Of a stretch of 24,842 nucleotides of DNA, positions 5,761-21,527 are shown one piece after another; within the stretch, counting starts at the first letter, position 1, and every line of letters starts with the position of its first letter. The translations under genes were made by a program, and so were the position numbers. Origin of the DNA: a virus; the IMG/VR virus record IMGVR_UViG_3300042323_000949, positions 1 to 24,842 of that record. The stretch is one strand, 5' to 3'. The notes below the pieces were generated by a model. The model saw only the letters and a program-made list of their open reading frames with translations, did no database searches and was not told where the DNA came from.

Positions 5761-5976
5761 TTACTTAGTGAAAAAAATATTGAGAAGCTGGTACGCGCCC
5801 AGCAGTGCGGTTACGAAAACAAAAATGAAAATGATTGCCCTGGCCATGACCTTTGCGATCCACTCAAACACGTAGATGGTTTGGTCTTCGTCTTCTGCTT
5901 TTGGGGTGACTGCGGCAGCGGGTTTGCGTGCAGGGCAGTCTCTGCCTTGGGTGCATTGGTAGTCGCAGCAATTCAT
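5761..5976 (-). CDS. Small membrane protein with N-terminal Cys motif
   Basis: A 71-residue protein beginning MNCCDYQCTQGRDCPAR, a cysteine motif (CC..xC...xxxC) typical of a small phage protein family frequent in Burkholderiales phages. A single hydrophobic segment at about residues 42-66 (AKVMARAIIFIFVFVTALLG) should span the membrane, leaving the Cys-rich end exposed on one side. The cysteines could bind a metal, but the ligand set is not proven. ATGA overlaps the upstream stop, and the annealase gene starts eight bases after this stop. Function unknown. Confidence 0.8.
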   Translation of the reverse strand: MNCCDYQCTQGRDCPARKPAAAVTPKAEDEDQTIYVFEWIAKVMARAIIFIFVFVTALLGAYQLLNIFFTK

Positions 5977-6245
5977 AACGCCCCCGCAATAATTTGACCT
6001 TGACCTTTGCCCTTGCGTGGCTGGCAGCGATACATTCCATCAACCTCAATGTATGAGGCATTCCCGCAAACAATCGCCGCACGGCGCAATAGTTCAGCCT
6101 CTTTCGCTGCTTGTTTCTGTGCGGCGATTAAGTCCTGAGACTGCGCCCACTCATGGCTCATGTCGTCCATGTCAATAGCAACCCCAAGACTGCCAAGGGT
6201 TAAAACACCAGAAATAAGCAGCAGCAGGGTAGAAGGCCGGATCAC
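5973..6245 (-). CDS. Small exported or membrane-anchored phage protein
   Basis: A 90-residue reading from GTG at 6245, chosen because it makes a GTGA overlap with the preceding gene. Residues 4-24 (PSTLLLLISGVLTLGSLGVA) form a signal peptide or N-terminal anchor. The rest is polar and helical, with two cysteines (VCGNASYIEVDG and MYRCQP) that could form a disulphide if the domain is periplasmic. Members with this layout occur next to the 'CTQGxxCPAR' protein in related phages, as here. The role is unknown. Confidence 0.75.
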   Translation of the reverse strand: MIRPSTLLLLISGVLTLGSLGVAIDMDDMSHEWAQSQDLIAAQKQAAKEAELLRRAAIVCGNASYIEVDGMYRCQPRKGKGQGQIIAGAL

Positions 6246-6454
6246 AATGCACCGCCGATCATCATGTCCCGGCGAGCCTGTTCATTGGCCAGCCGACTCA
6301 CAAGGCGACGATGCGTTTCGCCGCTTTTGTAATCCGCAATGCGCTGCATGTCCATCTTGAGGCGATCAGCCTCGGTGATCTTGTGCACCACGCTTTGAGG
6401 GGGCGCAAAGGGGGCCAGTGCTTGCGCTAGGCATGCTGGCAGGTTTGCATTCAT
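6242..6454 (-). CDS. First gene of the leftward early operon, small phage protein
   Basis: A 70-residue protein starting MNANLPACLAQALAPFAPPQ. The ATG at 6454 has GGAG six bases upstream; an in-frame ATG at 6466 has no such site, so I prefer the shorter form. Residues 5-20 are hydrophobic and Pro-containing, and the C-terminal part (ETHRRLVSRLANEQARRDMM) is a basic helix. This two-part layout (an 'APFAPPQS' start, then a 'THRRLV' helix) recurs in small proteins of related phages. It is the promoter-proximal gene, about 160 bases from the candidate promoter at 6614-6642. Function unknown. Confidence 0.78.
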   Translation of the reverse strand: MNANLPACLAQALAPFAPPQSVVHKITEADRLKMDMQRIADYKSGETHRRLVSRLANEQARRDMMIGGAL

Positions 6455-6613
6455 TGCCGTCTCCATCGGGGTAAAACATGGCGATTTCTCGCCGCTTTAC
6501 ACACCTAAACCGATGCGCCCTTTAAGAGCTAACCCCGCCTTCTGCATCCTTGTTGCTTAGACCTCGTGTCGCCAGGTCTAGGGTGTTTCGCGGTTTTTGG
6601 TGCGATGGAAGAA

Positions 6614-6642
6614 AGTATGCATCATGCATAATCTATTGTCAA
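6614..6642 (-). promoter_or_regulatory. Candidate leftward early promoter (PL-like)
   Basis: On the minus strand a perfect TTGACA (6642-6637) is followed, after 17 bases, by CATACT (6619-6614), four of six matches to the -10 consensus. A repressor-type dyad (6616-6630) covers the -10 box and part of the spacer. This is the expected arrangement for a repressible PL promoter driving the operon that starts at 6454. Confidence 0.6.
6616..6630. promoter_or_regulatory. Candidate repressor operator at the leftward promoter
   Basis: A perfect 15-base dyad, TATGCAT-C-ATGCATA, overlaps the -10 box of the leftward promoter. The TATGC half-site recurs in the repressor/cro intergenic region at 8409-8462, as expected if one repressor controls both promoters. 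Confidence 0.5.
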
Positions 6643-6646
6643 GCAA

Positions 6647-6654
6647 TATGCATA
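6647..6654. promoter_or_regulatory. Second candidate operator upstream of the leftward -35 box
   Basis: The palindrome TATGCATA lies a few bases upstream of the leftward -35 hexamer, about 30 bases (three helical turns) from the start of the first dyad. The position and shared half-site suggest a second binding site for the same regulator. Confidence 0.4.
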
Positions 6655-6728
6655 ACAAAATGCCAAAATAAATTCTCTACAACCGACCCCTTGAAGTCCA
6701 AAGGCGTCGCCAAAAAAACGGATGGGCG

Positions 6729-6752
6729 AAAAAAAACCCGCCGCAGCGGGTT
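6729..6752 (-). terminator. Rho-independent terminator of the repressor operon
   Basis: Read on the minus strand: stem AACCCGC, loop TGCG, stem GCGGGTT, then a run of eight T residues. It begins one base after the stop of the 126-residue membrane protein at 6754, so it ends the leftward transcript that starts at the repressor and insulates it from the early promoter. Confidence 0.9.
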
Positions 6753-6753
6753 C

Positions 6754-7134
6754 TCAGAACTTATACGGGATTTCTGGCGGGTCTGGATCTAGGCGCTCCA
6801 GATCAATCTCTTTTTGGTCACACGACAATGACGCCGTTTTTGTGATGGCGTCCCGCCAGACAATACACCGCTTGTTCTCAACAAGAGTCCCGCCCATGGT
6901 TGACCGTGGGATATTGAGCTCAATAAGGGTTCCTTGGGGGGTTTGCCACTCGGTTGTTTTGGGACCAGCCTTGATGACATCTTGAACAGCTTGCTTGCGC
7001 TGGGCTCGGTTTTCGGTTGTGACGCTGGATTTTTCGGCCTTCTTGCTGTTGACCTCCTGGAACCAAAAAAGCAATAAGGCTCCCAGGCTCAGCCAAAAAA
7101 GCATGCCTAACAAGGTTTGAAGATGGGACTTCAT
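6754..7134 (-). CDS. Membrane-anchored protein with a soluble C-terminal domain, lysogeny block
   Basis: A 126-residue protein. Residues 5-27 (LQTLLGMLFWLSLGALLLFW) form one membrane segment. A polar Lys/Glu-rich linker follows, then a compact domain of about 80 residues containing TPQGTLIELNIP and two cysteines about 16 residues apart (NKRCIVWRDAITKTASLSC). The Lys-rich linker after the anchor leaves topology unsettled; a periplasmic domain with a disulphide is possible. It overlaps the previous gene by ATGA and is the last gene before a terminator. Position downstream of the repressor suggests expression in the lysogen; a role in host conversion or exclusion is inference only. Confidence 0.72.
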   Translation of the reverse strand: MKSHLQTLLGMLFWLSLGALLLFWFQEVNSKKAEKSSVTTENRAQRKQAVQDVIKAGPKTTEWQTPQGTLIELNIPRSTMGGTLVENKRCIVWRDAITKTASLSCDQKEIDLERLDPDPPEIPYKF

Positions 7135-7316
7135 TTTGTAAGCTTTACCTCAGCCTTGGCGTCATCTTCTATCAGGTAAATGGTGCCGGTCCAACGGTCT
7201 AGCGCGTAAGCCCTTGCGTACCCTGCAGTGTGCGCACCTATAACCAACTGCCACCTGAACATCAGCACCATGCAAAGCAGTAACGTAGCAGCAAGAACAA
7301 GGATTGATTTGCTCAT
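7131..7316 (-). CDS. Very small membrane protein, lysogeny block
   Basis: A 61-residue protein with an N-terminal membrane segment at residues 4-20 (SILVLAATLLLCMVLMF) and a short polar tail containing ARAYALDRWTGTIYLIEDD. The tail would fit a small beta hairpin. No strong ribosome binding site precedes the ATG at 7316, which lies 24 bases after the preceding stop. It overlaps the next gene by ATGA, so the two are likely made together. No family recognised. Confidence 0.65.
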   Translation of the reverse strand: MSKSILVLAATLLLCMVLMFRWQLVIGAHTAGYARAYALDRWTGTIYLIEDDAKAEVKLTK

Positions 7317-11558: not shown

Positions 11559-11795
11559 ATGCACAAACAGTACAGAAACCACATTCGAGAAGAGCATCAA
11601 GCCGCCGCACGCTGGCTGATGTCACAACCCCATGACCCCGTACCAAGCGAAGTTTCTAGCGCACGTCCTGCACTTGCACAGCCTGGAGTCGAGCTATGCC
11701 ATGAAGTCAGCAAGACACCTGGCAAAGCTAGACCCGTTTCAACTGGCCGACCTGCCGGAAATGTTTTCGCAGGCCTTGGAGGGGCAGCAGCGTGA
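11559..11795 (+). CDS. Small gene in frame 1, possibly only its first 25 codons genuine
   Basis: The frame opens six bases after the previous stop and ends with a GTGA overlap into the HNH gene. The first 25 residues (MHKQYRNHIREEHQAAARWL) look like ordinary coding sequence. After about 11630 the composition turns to Pro/Ala/Gly/Ser-rich filler with poor codon bias, while an alternative frame (11632-11826) gains good codon bias. So the true product is either this 78-residue protein, a short protein that lost its stop, or the first part of a gene broken by a frameshift near 11630. I recognise no family. Confidence 0.45.
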   Translation: MHKQYRNHIREEHQAAARWLMSQPHDPVPSEVSSARPALAQPGVELCHEVSKTPGKARPVSTGRPAGNVFAGLGGAAA

Positions 11796-11826
11796 CAGAC
11801 TTGATGCTTCAAGCCAACTGGATTAA
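11632..11826 (+). CDS. Overlapping small gene in frame 2
   Basis: A 64-residue frame, +1 relative to the preceding one, reading MTPYQAKFLAHVLHLHSLES and DPFQLADLPEMFSQALEGQQ. Its codons mostly end in G or C and it has an amphipathic helical pattern, so it looks more protein-like than the frame-1 reading over the same DNA. No ribosome binding site precedes its ATG, which argues either for translation coupled to the upstream frame or for a frameshift joining the two. Its stop lies 35 bases inside the HNH gene, within the segment that matches ninB. Confidence 0.45.
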   Translation: MTPYQAKFLAHVLHLHSLESSYAMKSARHLAKLDPFQLADLPEMFSQALEGQQRDRLDASSQLD

Positions 11827-12541
11827 CCCCCAGCAGGCCCACGCACACCTGACTAAAACTTGCACCAAATGCTTCAAAGAAATGGATTTGTCGAAATTCA
11901 GCAAACACGCAAAGGGAAAGTATGGTGTTCGCGCTGCTTGCAAGAAGTGTTTAGGAGTTGTTGGAAAAGAGTATGCCGCTAAACATAAAGAAACGAAGGC
12001 GGAAACAAACGCAGCCTGGGCTAAAGCAAACAAACAAAGATGCGCCAGAAATAAGGCCATTTGGTATTCAAAAAACAAGGAAAAGTGCGCAAAAGTTAGC
12101 GCACTATGGGCAAAAGAAAATCCTGAAAAAATTAAAGCAGCAAGCGACTTGTATAAAAAACTAAATCCTGAAAAGGTAAGGTTTTTTTTCAAAAGATGGT
12201 ATTTGAATAATCCTGATTTGGCTCGCAAAGCTACTTTGAATTGGAGGGCGGCCAACCCGGAGGCAAGAAGAATTGCAGAACAAAACAGGAGGGCAAAAGT
12301 TAAATCGAGTGGGCGGCTTTCTAAAGGTTTGGTGCAAAAACTAAATAGGTTGCAAAAAGGCAAATGTCCTTGCTGCAAAAAACCGCTTGGGAAAAAATAC
12401 CACTTAGATCACAAGATTCCGCTTTTTCTTGGCGGGGAGAACATTGACGAAAACATGCAGCTTCTTAAATCTGGATGCAATCTAAAGAAAAGTAAAAAGC
12501 ATCCAGTTGACTTCATGCAATCCAAAGGGTTTTTGTTGTGA
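11792..12541 (+). CDS. HNH homing-type endonuclease with captured NinB N terminus
   Basis: A 249-residue protein from a GTG at 11792 (GTGA overlap, GAGGGG six bases upstream). Residues 12-19 read INPQQAHA, identical to the start of NinB encoded next. A zinc-knuckle region follows (CTKCFKEMDLSKF, then AACKKCLG), then about 120 Lys/Asn-rich residues with repeats such as LWAKENPEKIKAA and LYKKLNPEKVRFF, typical DNA-wrapping repeats of phage HNH enzymes. The HNH domain is at about 190-245: CPCCKKPLG, YHLDHKIPLFLGGENIDENM, then a terminal Cys and Lys-rich helix. The gene is clearly more A-rich than its neighbours, a sign of transfer. The overlap with ninB is again GTGA, so the invasion left the operon translatable. 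Confidence 0.9.
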   Translation: MTDLMLQANWINPQQAHAHLTKTCTKCFKEMDLSKFSKHAKGKYGVRAACKKCLGVVGKEYAAKHKETKAETNAAWAKANKQRCARNKAIWYSKNKEKCAKVSALWAKENPEKIKAASDLYKKLNPEKVRFFFKRWYLNNPDLARKATLNWRAANPEARRIAEQNRRAKVKSSGRLSKGLVQKLNRLQKGKCPCCKKPLGKKYHLDHKIPLFLGGENIDENMQLLKSGCNLKKSKKHPVDFMQSKGFLL

Positions 12542-12987
12542 ACAGCATCACTTTAATTAACCCTCAACAAGCTCACGCCGCTATTTCTGCTTTATTCAAA
12601 AATCACATCAAGCCGATGACAGCAGCCGGGAACCGGCTTGAAATGGAAATTAGGTTATTTGAGGATGCGAAATCAGATCGTCAAAGGGCTTACTACCACA
12701 AGGCAGTGCTGACCGAGATAGCAAAACAAGCCAAGGTCAACGGTCAAACCTTTCCGATGGCGGTATGGAAAGAGCATTTCCGTTCTGTGTACCTTGGGTT
12801 TAAAACTGTGACATGCGTCAACCCCATGACGGGAAAAAAATCCAGGCGCAGGGTTCGTAAATCCACCGAAGACTTGGGTGTGAAGGCTTACAGCGATTTG
12901 ATTGAGAAGGTTACCGCTTTCGCGGTGACTGAGCTGGGCGTTCAGTTCCCGGAGTGGATCGACCCAGAAACCGGGGAGGTTTTGTGA
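12538..12987 (+). CDS. ninB: NinB-family recombination protein
   Basis: A 149-residue protein from a GTG at 12538 overlapping the HNH stop, with AGGG nine bases upstream. The segment RQRAYYHKAVLTEIAKQAKV followed by FPMAVWKEHFRSVYLG, and the ending FAVTELGVQFPEWIDPETGE, are characteristic of NinB (lambda Orf family). These proteins bind single-stranded DNA and SSB and help RecA or annealase loading. Its first residues (NSITLINPQQAHA) are repeated at the start of the upstream HNH gene, with all nucleotide differences in the shared eight codons being synonymous. It is full length, so the gene survived the invasion. Confidence 0.88.
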   Translation: MNSITLINPQQAHAAISALFKNHIKPMTAAGNRLEMEIRLFEDAKSDRQRAYYHKAVLTEIAKQAKVNGQTFPMAVWKEHFRSVYLGFKTVTCVNPMTGKKSRRRVRKSTEDLGVKAYSDLIEKVTAFAVTELGVQFPEWIDPETGEVL

Positions 12988-16817: not shown

Positions 16818-17341
16818 CCCCACAAGACTTGGCCAGGTCAACCGGGGCACGGATTGACCGCGCGACCGCGTTTTTGCCGTTCATCCAAGCCGCGATGCTC
16901 GAGTACGACATCAACACACCCGAGCGCAAAGCCGCATTTTTAGCCCAAATCGGCCATGAGTCCGGTGGACTGCGCTGGGTGGTGGAGCTTTGGGGCCCAA
17001 CGGATGCCCAAAAGCGCTACGAAGGCCGCGCGGATCTTGGCAACACCGAGCCCGGAGACGGGTTTAAGTACCGTGGCCGTGGATTGATCCAGACCACAGG
17101 GCGCGCAAACTACAAACGCACGGGCGACGCCCTTGATGCGGACCTGATCGCAAAGCCTGAGAGGCTGGCCGAACCCGAGCTGGCCGCCAGAAGCGCGGCA
17201 TGGTTCTGGAAGGTGCACGGGCTCAATGAACTGGCCGACGTGGGCGATTTCATGCGCATTACCCGAAGGATAAACGGCGGCACCAACGGCTACGAGGACC
17301 GCCTGGCCCGGTTTGAGGTGGCAAAAGAGGTTTTCGCCTGA
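16814..17341 (+). CDS. Endolysin, glycoside hydrolase 19 (chitinase-like) family
   Basis: A 175-residue protein overlapping the holin by ATGA. The segment KAAFLAQIGHESGGLRWVVE contains the first catalytic Glu (Glu49, HESGG) with Glu58 as the likely second. Further family marks are YEGRADLGNTEPGDGFKYRG, RGLIQTTGRANY and a final INGGTNGYEDRL. GH19 endolysins cut the sugar backbone of peptidoglycan. No signal peptide or membrane segment is present, so export depends on the holin upstream. The length fits a single-domain enzyme. Confidence 0.94.
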   Translation: MTPQDLARSTGARIDRATAFLPFIQAAMLEYDINTPERKAAFLAQIGHESGGLRWVVELWGPTDAQKRYEGRADLGNTEPGDGFKYRGRGLIQTTGRANYKRTGDALDADLIAKPERLAEPELAARSAAWFWKVHGLNELADVGDFMRITRRINGGTNGYEDRLARFEVAKEVFA

Positions 17342-17823
17342 TGCCGACCTGGCTTCTCAATCCGAAAGTTTTGGCCGCGCTGGCCGCCACCCTGATCTGG
17401 GCAGGAACGCTTTACAAGGCCTACGACCTGGGTGGAGCCGAAAGCCGCGCCGAACTGAGCGACTACAAGGCCACTCAGGACCAGGCCGCTTTAGAGGCTG
17501 CCGAGGCAAACCGAGCCTTGGAGAAGGGCTACCAAACCGCAATAGGGAATCTGACAGATGCCTACATCAAAGAAAAATCTGCCGGCGCTGCTGCTGCTGG
17601 CCGTGCTGCTGACAGCCTGCGCGACCTCCAAACCACCCTTGGTAGTGCCACCAGCCCAAATTCCCAAGCCGCCAGCAGAGTTAATGGTTTCCCCGGACTT
17701 GAGTCAGAGTTACTCGGATTTTGTGCAGCAACTCTTGTCCAGTTGGCAAAAGAAGCTGACTCCTGCGAAGCCCGTTTGACCGCGCTGCAGGACTACGTCA
17801 GAGCAATCACCAAAGCGCCATGA
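17341..17823 (+). CDS. Rz: Inner-membrane spanin subunit (Rz-like, DUF2514 type)
   Basis: A 160-residue protein, TGATG overlap with the endolysin. Residues 7-25 (NPKVLAALAATLIWAGTLYK) form an N-terminal anchor, followed by a long Ala/Glu-rich helix (residues 33-100) typical of i-spanins, and a C-terminal half with two or three cysteines. The o-spanin is encoded entirely inside it in the +1 frame. The pair links inner and outer membranes and fuses them at the end of lysis. Its stop overlaps the next gene by ATGA. Confidence 0.88.
   Translation: MPTWLLNPKVLAALAATLIWAGTLYKAYDLGGAESRAELSDYKATQDQAALEAAEANRALEKGYQTAIGNLTDAYIKEKSAGAAAAGRAADSLRDLQTTLGSATSPNSQAASRVNGFPGLESELLGFCAATLVQLAKEADSCEARLTALQDYVRAITKAP
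17558..17779 (+). CDS. Rz1: Outer-membrane spanin lipoprotein (Rz1-like), nested in Rz
   Basis: A 73-residue frame inside the i-spanin gene. It has a lysine-containing start, a hydrophobic core and a lipobox LLTAC with the lipidated Cys at residue 21. The mature part is Pro-rich (PPLVVPPAQIPKPPAELM) with a short helical tail, as in Rz1 proteins. Complete nesting of the lipoprotein in the other spanin gene is the lambda arrangement and strongly supports both calls. Confidence 0.9.
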   Translation: MPTSKKNLPALLLLAVLLTACATSKPPLVVPPAQIPKPPAELMVSPDLSQSYSDFVQQLLSSWQKKLTPAKPV

Positions 17824-18401
17824 CCGCCGCAAAAACAGCCCAAAAGGCCAAAACTGCCCAAAAAACAGGCAAAACCGGCGCGTCAAAATCCCTAAAAGGC
17901 AAGCCGAGCGCATCAGGACACAATCCAGCCAAGCCAAAGCGAAGGGTTGACTGGGATGCAGTGGAGCGAGACTTTAGAACCGGCAAATTCACCTTGCGCG
18001 AGCTGGGCGACAAGTATGGGGTGACACATACGGCTGTGCGTAAGCAGTCGGTGTGTCGGGGGTGGTCCGTAGCCTCAACTCGCCAGTATTTTGAACCAAC
18101 GCACCGCGCAGACGACTACTCATCGCCCGGTTTCCTGTACGTCATTTGCATGGAAGACACCGCAGGCCAGCGATTTAGCAAGATTGGGATTGCCACTCAC
18201 CTGGAAAGCCGCATGAAGAGCCACCAGTGTTCCAGCCCGTTTGAGTTGAAGGTGGTCCTGAGTTACTTCGTGGGCAACATGCGCCGCGAGGAATCTGAAA
18301 TTCATGGGCTGTTTGCCCAAAAGCGGGTGAGGGGCGAGTGGTTTGAACTGAATCATGCGGATCTTGAGGCGATTTCCCGCAGGAGCTTGCTCAATGACTG
18401 A
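17820..18401 (+). CDS. T5orf172/MUG113 (GIY-YIG-like) nuclease with a TerS-like N-terminal HTH
   Basis: A 193-residue protein. Residues 1-40 are a Lys/Ala/Ser-rich tail. Residues 43-82 (DWDAVERDFRTGKFTLRELG, then DKYGVTHTAVRKQ) form a helix-turn-helix that matches the start of the small terminase encoded next. Residues about 104-185 match the T5orf172/MUG113 branch of GIY-YIG nucleases: GFLYVIC, KIGIA at 121-125, Arg131, Glu158/Glu160 region (REESEIHGLF) and GEWFEL at 172-177. It overlaps terS by eight bases. The protein is thus a nuclease joined to a terminase-type DNA-binding domain. It could be a homing nuclease; a role in packaging is a less likely alternative. Confidence 0.85.
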   Translation: MTAAKTAQKAKTAQKTGKTGASKSLKGKPSASGHNPAKPKRRVDWDAVERDFRTGKFTLRELGDKYGVTHTAVRKQSVCRGWSVASTRQYFEPTHRADDYSSPGFLYVICMEDTAGQRFSKIGIATHLESRMKSHQCSSPFELKVVLSYFVGNMRREESEIHGLFAQKRVRGEWFELNHADLEAISRRSLLND

Positions 18402-19038
18402 CAAGGTCACCAAAGAAGTGAAGCGTCGCGATACCGATTGGGAGGCTGTCCACCGCGACTTCAGGACTGGCAAGTTCACCGTCCGCGAGCTGGGCACGAA
18501 GTACAACATATCGCACCAAGCAGTTGCCAGGAGGTCCAAGCTACATGACTGGCAGAAAGACCTTTTGCCAGAGATCAGGGAAGCGACAAACGCGCTACTT
18601 GTCAAAAACATTGTCAACAAAGAAGTTGCCAAAGCTGGACAAGAAGTTGCCAACACCGTTTTAGCGGCTGCGGAGATAAACACGCAAGTTATTCTCAAGC
18701 ACAGGAAAGACATTGAAGCTACAAGATTAGTAGCGTCGCAGCTTCTTGCAGAGGTGGCAAACAGCAGCCTATTGGTTGAAGAACAAGAGGTTCTGGCAGC
18801 AATTTTGGCCGGTGGAAACTCTTCTGAGCCCACAGACACAAAAAAGCTTGCTGATGCGAGAAGGGTAATTCAAAAGGCGCTTGATATTGGCAACCGAGTT
18901 GGCAGCGTAAAGCTATTGGCTGACACTTTCACCAAGCTTCAAGGCGCTGAGCGCAAAGCCTTTGGACTGACCGACGTCGACGACGGCGACGACACGCCCA
19001 AGGTAACCATCAAAGACTTGACCGGTCGAAAAGACTGA
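18394..19038 (+). CDS. terS: Terminase small subunit
   Basis: A 214-residue protein with AGGAG eight bases before the ATG at 18394. Residues 11-53 are the DNA-binding HTH (DWEAVHRDFRTGKFTVRELG, TKYNISHQAVARRSKLHDW), the type seen in many small terminases. A long central helical region (about 55-150) would form the oligomer ring, and the C-terminal segment ends DGDDTPKVTIKDLTGRKD. It recognises phage DNA and hands it to the large subunit, whose ATG shares a base with this stop (TGATG). The HTH is duplicated in the preceding nuclease gene. Confidence 0.9.
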   Translation: MTDKVTKEVKRRDTDWEAVHRDFRTGKFTVRELGTKYNISHQAVARRSKLHDWQKDLLPEIREATNALLVKNIVNKEVAKAGQEVANTVLAAAEINTQVILKHRKDIEATRLVASQLLAEVANSSLLVEEQEVLAAILAGGNSSEPTDTKKLADARRVIQKALDIGNRVGSVKLLADTFTKLQGAERKAFGLTDVDDGDDTPKVTIKDLTGRKD

Positions 19039-21527
19039 TGGGCTCTGAGTTTCAGTATGCGTACAAGCCGCAAGGGCCTGTACTGGAAGAGTACATCCTG
19101 AGCGGATACCAGCGAACCATGATCATGGGCCCGCTTGGGTCTGGCAAGACGAATGCCAGTTGCTGGAAGGGGTTTCGCGTCATGTGCGCTCAGGAGCCAG
19201 ACGCGCAAGGGATCCGGAAAAGCCGTGGTATTGCCATCCGGAACTGTTATGACGACAAGACTGAAATCCTGACCGAGCGCAGAGGCTGGCAGTTGTTCCA
19301 GAACCTTGAAGAGGATGACAAGGTGGCCAGCCTGGTTGATGGCCTGCTGCAGTTCGTTCTTCCGACCTATTACTACAGCGCCCCGTATGACGGCGAAATG
19401 GTCACATACGAATCTGAGACTGTGAATTTTTGCGTGACGCCAGATCACCGCATGTATGTATCAAAGCAGGAGACGCGCGCCAAGGTGTGGAGCGATTACC
19501 GGTTTGAGCTGGCCAGCGCAATTGAGGGTAGCGGGGGCTTCCGAGTAAAACGCGATGCTAAATGGCAAGGTGACGCGCAGGAACTAACACAAGACTTTTT
19601 CGAGTGGCTTGGATTTTGGTTTGCGGAGGGGCATGTTGGCAGCACGGATTGCGAGGACGGCGGTACTCGTCGCCGGTTGATGCTAACCCAGGTTAAGGCC
19701 GACGGTATTGCTTACGCAAAAGATCTGTTCGCACGCGCTGGCATCCCATATGCAGCTTCAATGCGGACTGATAAAGGTGTGAACTTCAGGGTTTCAACGA
19801 CGCGCTGGAATCCAGATCACACAGGGAACAGGCTGTATCGACTTCTGGAGCGCGTTGGAAAGGCCACTGATAAGGCGGTTCCATTTTGGGTAAAGCAGGG
19901 TACCGCAGAGCAGTGCCGCGCTTTCATCAAAGGGTATGTGGCTGGCGACGGGTGTGTGCGGAGCAATTCCACGGTGGCCTACACGAGCTCAAAGCAGCTA
20001 GCCGATGACTTGCAGGAGATTGCCTTGAAAGCGGGCATGGTTGCCAACATCAATACGCGCAACCGTGTTGGTTGCGTCATGGTGATTAACGGGCGAGAAA
20101 CCAGCCCGACAGCGCCAGAGCACACCATCAGCTTTGTGAAGAACCGCGGCATTGAGCCAGCACTGCTGCGAAACCAGTGGAAGCGTACGGCCTACAAGGG
20201 GAATGTCCATTGTGTTGAAGTGCCGTCCCACATCGTTTATGTGCGGCGTTGCGGCAAGGCCATGTGGTGCTCCCAAACGTACCCGGACCTTTTTTCGACG
20301 ACGATTAAAGACTGGCTCGATATGTTCGAGCCGCTGGGAAAGTTCAAGCAGGGCGGCATGGAGCCGCCAACGCACTACCTGAAATTCAAGCTGGGTGATG
20401 GAACAACCGTAGAGGCCGAAACCGTCTTCTTGGCGCTGGACCGGGAAGACCACATCAAGAAATTGCGCGGGATTCAGACAACGTGGGGCTGGCTCAACGA
20501 GGTCAAGGAACTGTCATTCAGCGTCGTGGAAATGCTGGACTTGAGGATTGGACGCTATCCAAAGGACGTGCGACCGACCTGGTACGGGATATTTGGCGAC
20601 ACCAACGCGCCCGATAACGACCACTGGTATTACCGACTGTCAGAAGAGCTCAAGCCGGAGGGCTGGAAGTTCTTGAAGCAACCCGGCGGCGTCATAAGAA
20701 AGACGATCAACTCTCCATGGGAGCCAAACCCGGACGCTGAAAACGTCCAAAACCTGCCGCTGAATTACTACGCCAACGGTGCCCAGGGCAAGACAGACGC
20801 CTGGATTCTTATCAACCTGGCCAATGCCTACGGCTATGTCAGTGATGGAAAACCCGTTTACCCCGACTACCACGACCCGACGCATTGCAGGGCTTTCGAG
20901 CTGACACCCGGCTTACCGCTTCATATTGGACTGGACTTCGGGCTTACCCCGGCCGCCCAGATTGGCCAGAGGATGGCCAACGGACAGTGGCGAGTCAGGT
21001 ATGAGATTACGACAAAAGATACCGGTGTGATTCGGTTCGCCAATGAGCTCAAGACGTTCATTGCGGCGAATTGCAAGGGTTACACGATTGGCAGCATTAC
21101 CGGTGACCCGGCGGGCGATCAGCGCCAGGCGGGCGACAACGAAGAAAGAACGGTATTCCAGCTTCTGGAAGCCCACGGAGTCAAGGCGGTTCCAGCGCCT
21201 TTCAACAACGATTTCACGATTCGCACCGAGGCCGTTTCAGCCCCGCTGCGCCGAATGATTGACGGAGAGCCCGGATTCTTACTCCACCCTGATTGCAAGG
21301 TAACCCGCAAGGGAATGCAGGGTGCGTACAAGTTCCGGCGCATGAAAGTTTCCGGCGACGAGAGATATCAAGACATGCCGGTGAAAAACGATGCCAGCCA
21401 TCCATGTGAGGCTTTGCAATATTTAATGCTTGGCGGTGGCGAGGGCCAGGCAGTGATGCAAACCGTCAGCACAAAAGCACAAGAAGACGCCGCAGCAAGC
21501 TGGCGCAAAAAACGAGGCCTTGCATGA
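19038..21527 (+). CDS. terL: Terminase large subunit interrupted by a LAGLIDADG intein
   Basis: An 829-codon frame encoding a 485-residue terminase plus a 344-residue intein. The N-extein (residues 1-69) holds the Walker A box GPLGSGKT at 31-38 and ends AIRN. The C-extein begins TYPDLFSTTIKDWLDMFEPL. Later come TVFLALDRED, a Walker-B-like WGWLNEVKEL, and the nuclease acids in IGLDFGLTPAA, TGDPAGDQR and SHPCEALQY. It is the motor that translocates DNA into the prohead and the nuclease that cuts genome ends. An unspliced protein would separate Walker A from the rest of the ATPase, so splicing must be efficient. The frame is open throughout, with no sign of decay. Confidence 0.95.
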   Translation: MGSEFQYAYKPQGPVLEEYILSGYQRTMIMGPLGSGKTNASCWKGFRVMCAQEPDAQGIRKSRGIAIRNCYDDKTEILTERRGWQLFQNLEEDDKVASLVDGLLQFVLPTYYYSAPYDGEMVTYESETVNFCVTPDHRMYVSKQETRAKVWSDYRFELASAIEGSGGFRVKRDAKWQGDAQELTQDFFEWLGFWFAEGHVGSTDCEDGGTRRRLMLTQVKADGIAYAKDLFARAGIPYAASMRTDKGVNFRVSTTRWNPDHTGNRLYRLLERVGKATDKAVPFWVKQGTAEQCRAFIKGYVAGDGCVRSNSTVAYTSSKQLADDLQEIALKAGMVANINTRNRVGCVMVINGRETSPTAPEHTISFVKNRGIEPALLRNQWKRTAYKGNVHCVEVPSHIVYVRRCGKAMWCSQTYPDLFSTTIKDWLDMFEPLGKFKQGGMEPPTHYLKFKLGDGTTVEAETVFLALDREDHIKKLRGIQTTWGWLNEVKELSFSVVEMLDLRIGRYPKDVRPTWYGIFGDTNAPDNDHWYYRLSEELKPEGWKFLKQPGGVIRKTINSPWEPNPDAENVQNLPLNYYANGAQGKTDAWILINLANAYGYVSDGKPVYPDYHDPTHCRAFELTPGLPLHIGLDFGLTPAAQIGQRMANGQWRVRYEITTKDTGVIRFANELKTFIAANCKGYTIGSITGDPAGDQRQAGDNEERTVFQLLEAHGVKAVPAPFNNDFTIRTEAVSAPLRRMIDGEPGFLLHPDCKVTRKGMQGAYKFRRMKVSGDERYQDMPVKNDASHPCEALQYLMLGGGEGQAVMQTVSTKAQEDAAASWRKKRGLA
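19245..20276 (+). mobile_element. Intein with DOD/LAGLIDADG homing endonuclease in terL
   Basis: The 344-residue insert starts with Cys1 (CYDDKTEILTERRGW, block A). Block B is at intein residues 63-69 (CVTPDHR, the TxxH motif). The two endonuclease motifs are WLGFWFAEGH at 121-130 and IKGYVAGDGC at 228-237, with acidic residues in place (Glu128, Asp235). Block F is VHCVEVPSHIVYVRR, and block G ends AMWCSQ before Thr+1 of the C-extein. The last residue is Gln rather than the usual Asn and the penultimate one is Ser rather than His, an uncommon but known variant. Joining AIRN to TYPDL restores a normal terminase sequence, which fixes the boundaries. Confidence 0.93.

Follow-up and report, generated by a model that had tools for sequence, protein, structure and literature searches.

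In the 24,842-base stretch of viral DNA analysed here (the window), a gene of the lysis cassette, a nuclease gene, the small-terminase gene terS and the large-terminase gene terL follow one another in this order (Table 1). The stop codon of the lysis gene overlaps the start codon of the nuclease gene (ATGA), and the terS ATG at 18394, with AGGAG some eight bases upstream, in turn overlaps the nuclease stop codon. A frame embedded in the lysis gene (17558-17779) has a lipoprotein-like start and looks like an Rz1-type spanin. Some 5 kb upstream, a second nuclease gene, of the HNH type, directly precedes ninB.

Table 1. Features of the terS and ninB loci in the window
Feature	Position	Strand	Remarks
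HNH nuclease	11792..12541	+	first 20 residues match uninterrupted ninB N-terminus (15/20 with L221)
ninB	12538..12987	+	residues 1-31 resemble distant ninB type L229/L230; body 80% identical to L216
Lysis-cassette gene directly upstream of nuclease	17341..17823	+	Rz-like by position and layout, without family hit
Chimeric nuclease, 193 aa (leader, terminase HTH, MUG113/T5orf172 of GIY-YIG type)	17820..18401	+	
Lys/Ala-rich leader of nuclease	17820..17945	+	DNA homology to terS leaders of L030, L004 and L060, weaker to L064
Terminase-type HTH of nuclease, residues 43-83	17946..18068	+	PHROG 1206, E 5.8e-12; pLDDT 94-97
MUG113/T5orf172 nuclease domain, residues 104-187	18129..18380	+	KIG, Arg, Glu and GEWF conserved in relatives
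terS, 214 aa (short leader, second HTH, terminase body)	18394..19038	+	PHROG 1206, E 4.3e-37
HTH of TerS, residues 15-53	18436..18552	+	in-register repeat of nuclease HTH, spacing 487 nt
terL, interrupted by LAGLIDADG intein	19038..21527	+	
TerL intein, 344 aa	19245..20276	+	starts CYDD, ends MWCSQ before TYPDL

The protein encoded directly upstream of terS is a chimera, as proposed in an earlier note on this DNA that described a MUG113/T5orf172 nuclease fused to the helix-turn-helix (HTH) domain of a small terminase. Its C-terminal part scores well above the Pfam cut-offs for both MUG113 (PF13455, 57.4 bits against a cut-off of 22.3, E 2.2e-15) and T5orf172 (PF10544, 45.5 bits against 20, E 1.2e-11). 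The core residues of GIY-YIG enzymes (Tyr, KIG, Arg and Glu) are present, and Y, K, G, R, E, H and GEWF are invariant columns in an alignment of five relatives. Upstream of this domain, residues 39-83 match PHROG 1206 (terminase small subunit). The match ends at position 47 of the 207 in the profile and does not reach the C-terminal oligomerisation/body region, nor did the nuclease match a profile of the TerS body. Judging from its sequence, the protein is not a terminase, since it has no TerS C-terminal body. In the AlphaFold model, in which the GIY part is of low confidence, the HTH consists of three helices (residues 45-54, 59-66 and 70-80), and comparison of the model with the PDB returned common HTH folds only (best Z 4.9). 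No group I intron was detected in the window with Rfam and TerS is complete without splicing, and an intron-borne nuclease was rejected.

The same HTH recurs in TerS. Nuclease residues 44-82 (DW...W) align with TerS residues 15-53, with 58% identity over 43 residues (BLAST E ~2e-15 to 5e-15), which places the shared segments within one residue of where they had originally been reported (43-82 and 14-53). These E-values, together with the PHROG 1206 match of the nuclease, rule out chance similarity of the two HTHs. Their predicted structures agree as well, with TerS helices 16-25, 30-36 and 41-50 matching the three helices of the nuclease HTH at the same spacing. At the DNA level the copies are 76% identical over the best 68 nt and 59% over the 120-nt HTH, and synonymous sites are near saturation, which excludes a recent duplication and bears out the original suggestion that the HTH copy is not recent. 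The fusion and the duplicated HTH are both confirmed. When the two HTH copies are joined in register, they yield an open TerS frame of 243 residues, close to the 247 residues of the TerS of L004, a related virus; recombination between the repeats would thus be expected to drop the nuclease and give back a terS gene with a long leader. The terL gene downstream carries an intein, absent from L004, of which the first residue is Cys and the last apparently Gln, where Asn is usual.

This arrangement is unusual. Of 109 viral loci fetched for this HTH, the window alone contains two strong copies, and its nuclease is the only one to carry the domain. The remaining HTH proteins with other C-termini are for the most part terminases of other types or short phage proteins without assignment, and every other HTH protein that was inspected either lies in a packaging-gene context or has no nuclease domain. 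Conversely, the HTH was found in 0 of 30 MUG113 loci in genomes of the order of Bordetella trematum (G003), i.e. Burkholderiales, which disposes of the possibility, raised with the original observation, that it is generic to MUG113 proteins. No fusion of HTH and MUG113 was found in 399 + 369 genomes or in 50,697 phage records, collections that may omit the window's own record. The fusion is known from one genome plus a 7.3-kb contig (L003/L018/L032) encoding a protein identical over the overlap, so that mobility is not seen. In a wider comparison of 8661 ORFs from 231 loci, neighbouring ORFs seldom resembled each other at the N-terminus, and most pairs that did have the appearance of tandem paralogues; the window pair was the only case of a nuclease and a packaging gene sharing their N-termini.

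The origin of the N-terminal part of the nuclease became apparent from comparison with relatives. Three of these (L004, L033 and L015) have terS without the nuclease, as is seen around free-standing homing endonuclease genes; the other refuting condition set out in the earlier note, that every relative would have the nuclease ahead of terS, thus does not hold either. In L004 lysis genes are followed directly by terS and terL, with neither nuclease nor intein, and the TerS body and TerL are 73% and 86% identical, respectively, to those of the window. Lysis-type ORFs lie directly 5′ of terS in L030 also. The TerS of L004 starts with a Lys/Ala leader of 45 residues; such a leader is found on the window nuclease, while the window TerS has only a short one. 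The similarity extends to the DNA: the nuclease leader is identical to the terS leader of L030 at 60 of 72 nt without gaps, a score reached by none of 2000 codon shuffles, and it strongly matches that of L004 (1/2000 shuffles), with L060 (7/2000) and L064 (16/2000) following. The terminases encoded behind the leader are of unrelated families (L004, PHROG 1206; L030, Terminase_2; L060, Sf6_terminase), and the leader therefore marks the locus rather than a protein family; on this sequence evidence, it stays with the locus when the terminase body is exchanged. The HTH points in the same direction. Among 76 HTH sequences, that of the nuclease is nearest to L004 (first on DNA, tied with L005 on protein), and trees group the nuclease, L004 and the window TerS with a bootstrap of 83 on DNA, and the same three plus L070 with 78 on protein, although these supports are moderate and the alignment, of 40 residues, is too short to order events. 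To see whether terS had obtained its second 5′ end from elsewhere, HTH and body identities were compared, and the window TerS is no significant outlier. The earlier note had stated that the nuclease begins with its neighbour's own N-terminus, at terS as at ninB. This is supported but needs refining, since the N-terminus of today's TerS does not appear to be what the nuclease begins with: the nuclease seems to carry the ancestral front end of terS (leader and HTH), including a leader that the present TerS does not have.

The A-rich leader DNA encoding Lys and Ala is conserved at 17820-17945 of the window and at L030:5135, L004:2508, L060:5295 and L064:4951, and a site for packaging or regulation may lie within it. 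An exact scan for the leader as a widespread cos/pac motif returned four viral stretches, two of them clearly at terS starts. In L064, TerL matches in separate pieces (5865-7273) and may be interrupted or frameshifted.

A parallel is found at ninB. Uninterrupted ninB genes (L216-L221) open with M(S/T)DL..., and so does the HNH gene of the window, while the window ninB starts differently. Its residues 1-31 are identical to L229 at 19 of 31 positions and to L216 at 12, and beyond residue 31 the relationship is inverted, with ~23% identity to L229 against 80% to L216. The corresponding maximum chi-square breakpoint was reached by none of 5000 shuffles. Among controls, L223 and L225 have no ninB breakpoint at a comparable level, L217 has a high statistic that stems from three informative sites only, and the uninterrupted L222 has the same kind of breakpoint as the window, implying that ninB 5′ ends have been exchanged in other phages too. 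L222 is HNH-free, with a ninB start of another type and a KilA-N/ORF11CD3 gene directly 5′ of ninB (1007-1543). The motif INPQQAHA, common to the HNH protein and NinB, is not explained by copying of one gene into the other; both derive from ninB starts. Two nucleases of unrelated families thus each begin in the way that is typical of the gene behind them, while that gene itself starts differently. Among 30 related HNH loci, none shares its N-terminus with the next gene at a comparable level in an alignment test that was noisy, and a general rule for this HNH family was rejected. The HNH gene has a G+C content of 41% against 53% for the window, consistent with a foreign origin. In several related HNH loci (L159-L171 and L178-L180), PLEGV(T/N)M, in some cases preceded by TDTI, lies directly before the HNH start and is possibly a common upstream element.

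Several elements of this arrangement have precedents. In a survey of T5orf172 genes, a terminase gene was present in 35% of the neighbourhoods, and the free-standing T5orf172 homing endonuclease genes found beside terminase genes are of the same family and in the same position as the window nuclease (PMC10448857). The DNA-binding parts reported there are zinc fingers in 87% of cases, and a terminase HTH, such as the window nuclease has, is not among the domains described in the parts of the survey consulted (PMC10448857). The closest likeness to the duplicated gene end comes from fungal mitochondria, in which mobile ORFs make gene hybrids (atp6 in Allomyces; atp6, atp9, cox2 and nad3 in Glomus), the duplicate copies of Glomus atp6 being 63.5% identical at the nucleotide level (PMC3630166). 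There too, a nuclease ORF lies within a gene, one end of which has been duplicated and has diverged, a substitute end keeping the gene functional. In the fungal hybrids, however, it is the C-terminal end that is duplicated and the native end that is left behind (PMC3630166), whereas in the window, which is from a phage rather than a mitochondrion, duplication affects the 5′ end, the native copy of which appears to have become the N-terminus of the nuclease. By analogy, the arrangement may be regarded as a 5′ mirror of the fungal hybrids. At both loci in the window a part of the target gene is present twice and flanks the nuclease, namely the HTH at terS and the start of the gene at ninB.

We propose, with a probability of about 0.6, that homing-type nucleases inserted in frame just behind the 5′ end of their target genes, and that a replacement 5′ end preserved each target. 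At terS, a MUG113 homing-type module would have entered just behind the HTH-coding region, so that the resident 5′ end (a start codon coupled to the lysis gene, the leader and the HTH) would now head the nuclease. A second 5′ end, composed of a Shine-Dalgarno sequence inside the nuclease gene, a short leader and the second HTH, would have been joined in register to the terminase body, and the HNH gene seems to have arrived at ninB by the same route. The nuclease would thereby gain the translation start of its target gene, which would stay functional, and the target sequence would be interrupted in the carrier. We infer the order of these events, homing activity and an active nuclease, as well as the arrival of the second terS 5′ end with the element.

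An alternative is that the HTH acts as a guide, directing the nuclease to the site bound by TerS (cos or pac) in competing phages or satellites, as the earlier note had envisaged, and that the fusion arose or was retained through selection for this interference. The precedent is Odn (origin-directed nuclease) of vibriophage ICP1, a T5orf172 nuclease with a RepA_N domain resembling the one in the phage's satellite; it cleaves the origin of the satellite, to which RepA binds (PMC8263062). Further RepA_N-T5orf172 proteins are known (PMC10448857). The window nuclease likewise joins a T5orf172-type nuclease to the domain of a site-binding protein; unlike in Odn, the donor of this domain would be the small terminase that the phage itself encodes at this very locus, and leader and start would have come along with it; cutting is a predicted function. 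In its identity to other TerS HTHs (mean 0.50), the nuclease HTH is on a par with that of a normal TerS (0.51 for L004; 0.45 for the window TerS). It looks constrained (pN 0.19 and pS 0.76 versus L004) and probably still binds DNA. This constraint may nevertheless date from the TerS donor lineage, before capture, as selection specific to the nuclease branch is inseparable from it; many isolated TerS HTHs bind DNA weakly or without sequence specificity (PMC9611059), and the nuclease has no TerS oligomerisation core. The HNH gene captured ~20 residues of ninB and no DNA-binding domain, so that takeover of the 5′ end covers both cases while guidance is an extra claim. Guidance to cos/pac is not supported as the primary explanation and we consider it unlikely in that role, although guidance may still occur, the HTH being conserved. 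A combined reading, in which nucleases of unrelated families share the takeover (adopting the start and N-terminus of the target and supplying or duplicating its 5′ end) and at terS the HTH additionally aims the nuclease at the packaging or terS DNA of nuclease-free relatives, is tentative and would be put at somewhat below even odds.

A role as packaging accessory, in which the HTH would place the nuclease on the TerS site to help the terminase cut it, draws on the position of the gene between lysis genes and terS, which is the HK97/HK106 layout, and on the finding that HK97 gp74 stimulates cos cleavage in vitro (PMC11331095). The gp74 protein is an HNH protein, of another nuclease family, and has no terminase HTH (PMC11331095, PMC10448857). 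Since L004, L033 and L015, all close relatives, package their DNA in the absence of the nuclease, and practically no other virus has the gene, such a role seems improbable. Even less credible is that a MUG113 gene acquired a common HTH from some other source with no link to the terS beside it. Domain shuffling is frequent in T5orf172 genes, and yet the DNA-binding domains known in this family are mostly zinc fingers (PMC10448857), leader and HTH alike belong to the terS of this phage group, the other HTH proteins inspected lie in packaging-gene contexts or have no nuclease domain, and none of the 30 MUG113 loci has the HTH.

The arrangement is real and unusual, and what is new is that the nuclease appears to carry the ancestral front end of terS, the older one of the locus. 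Entry behind the 5′ end of a target gene, as proposed here, suggests how free-standing nuclease genes may get into essential phage genes with no need of an intron or intein, and how chimeric nucleases of the Odn kind might be born in one step. It also suggests why the starts of terminase and recombination genes are exchanged between phages, and predicts that the nuclease would read the same DNA as the small terminase.
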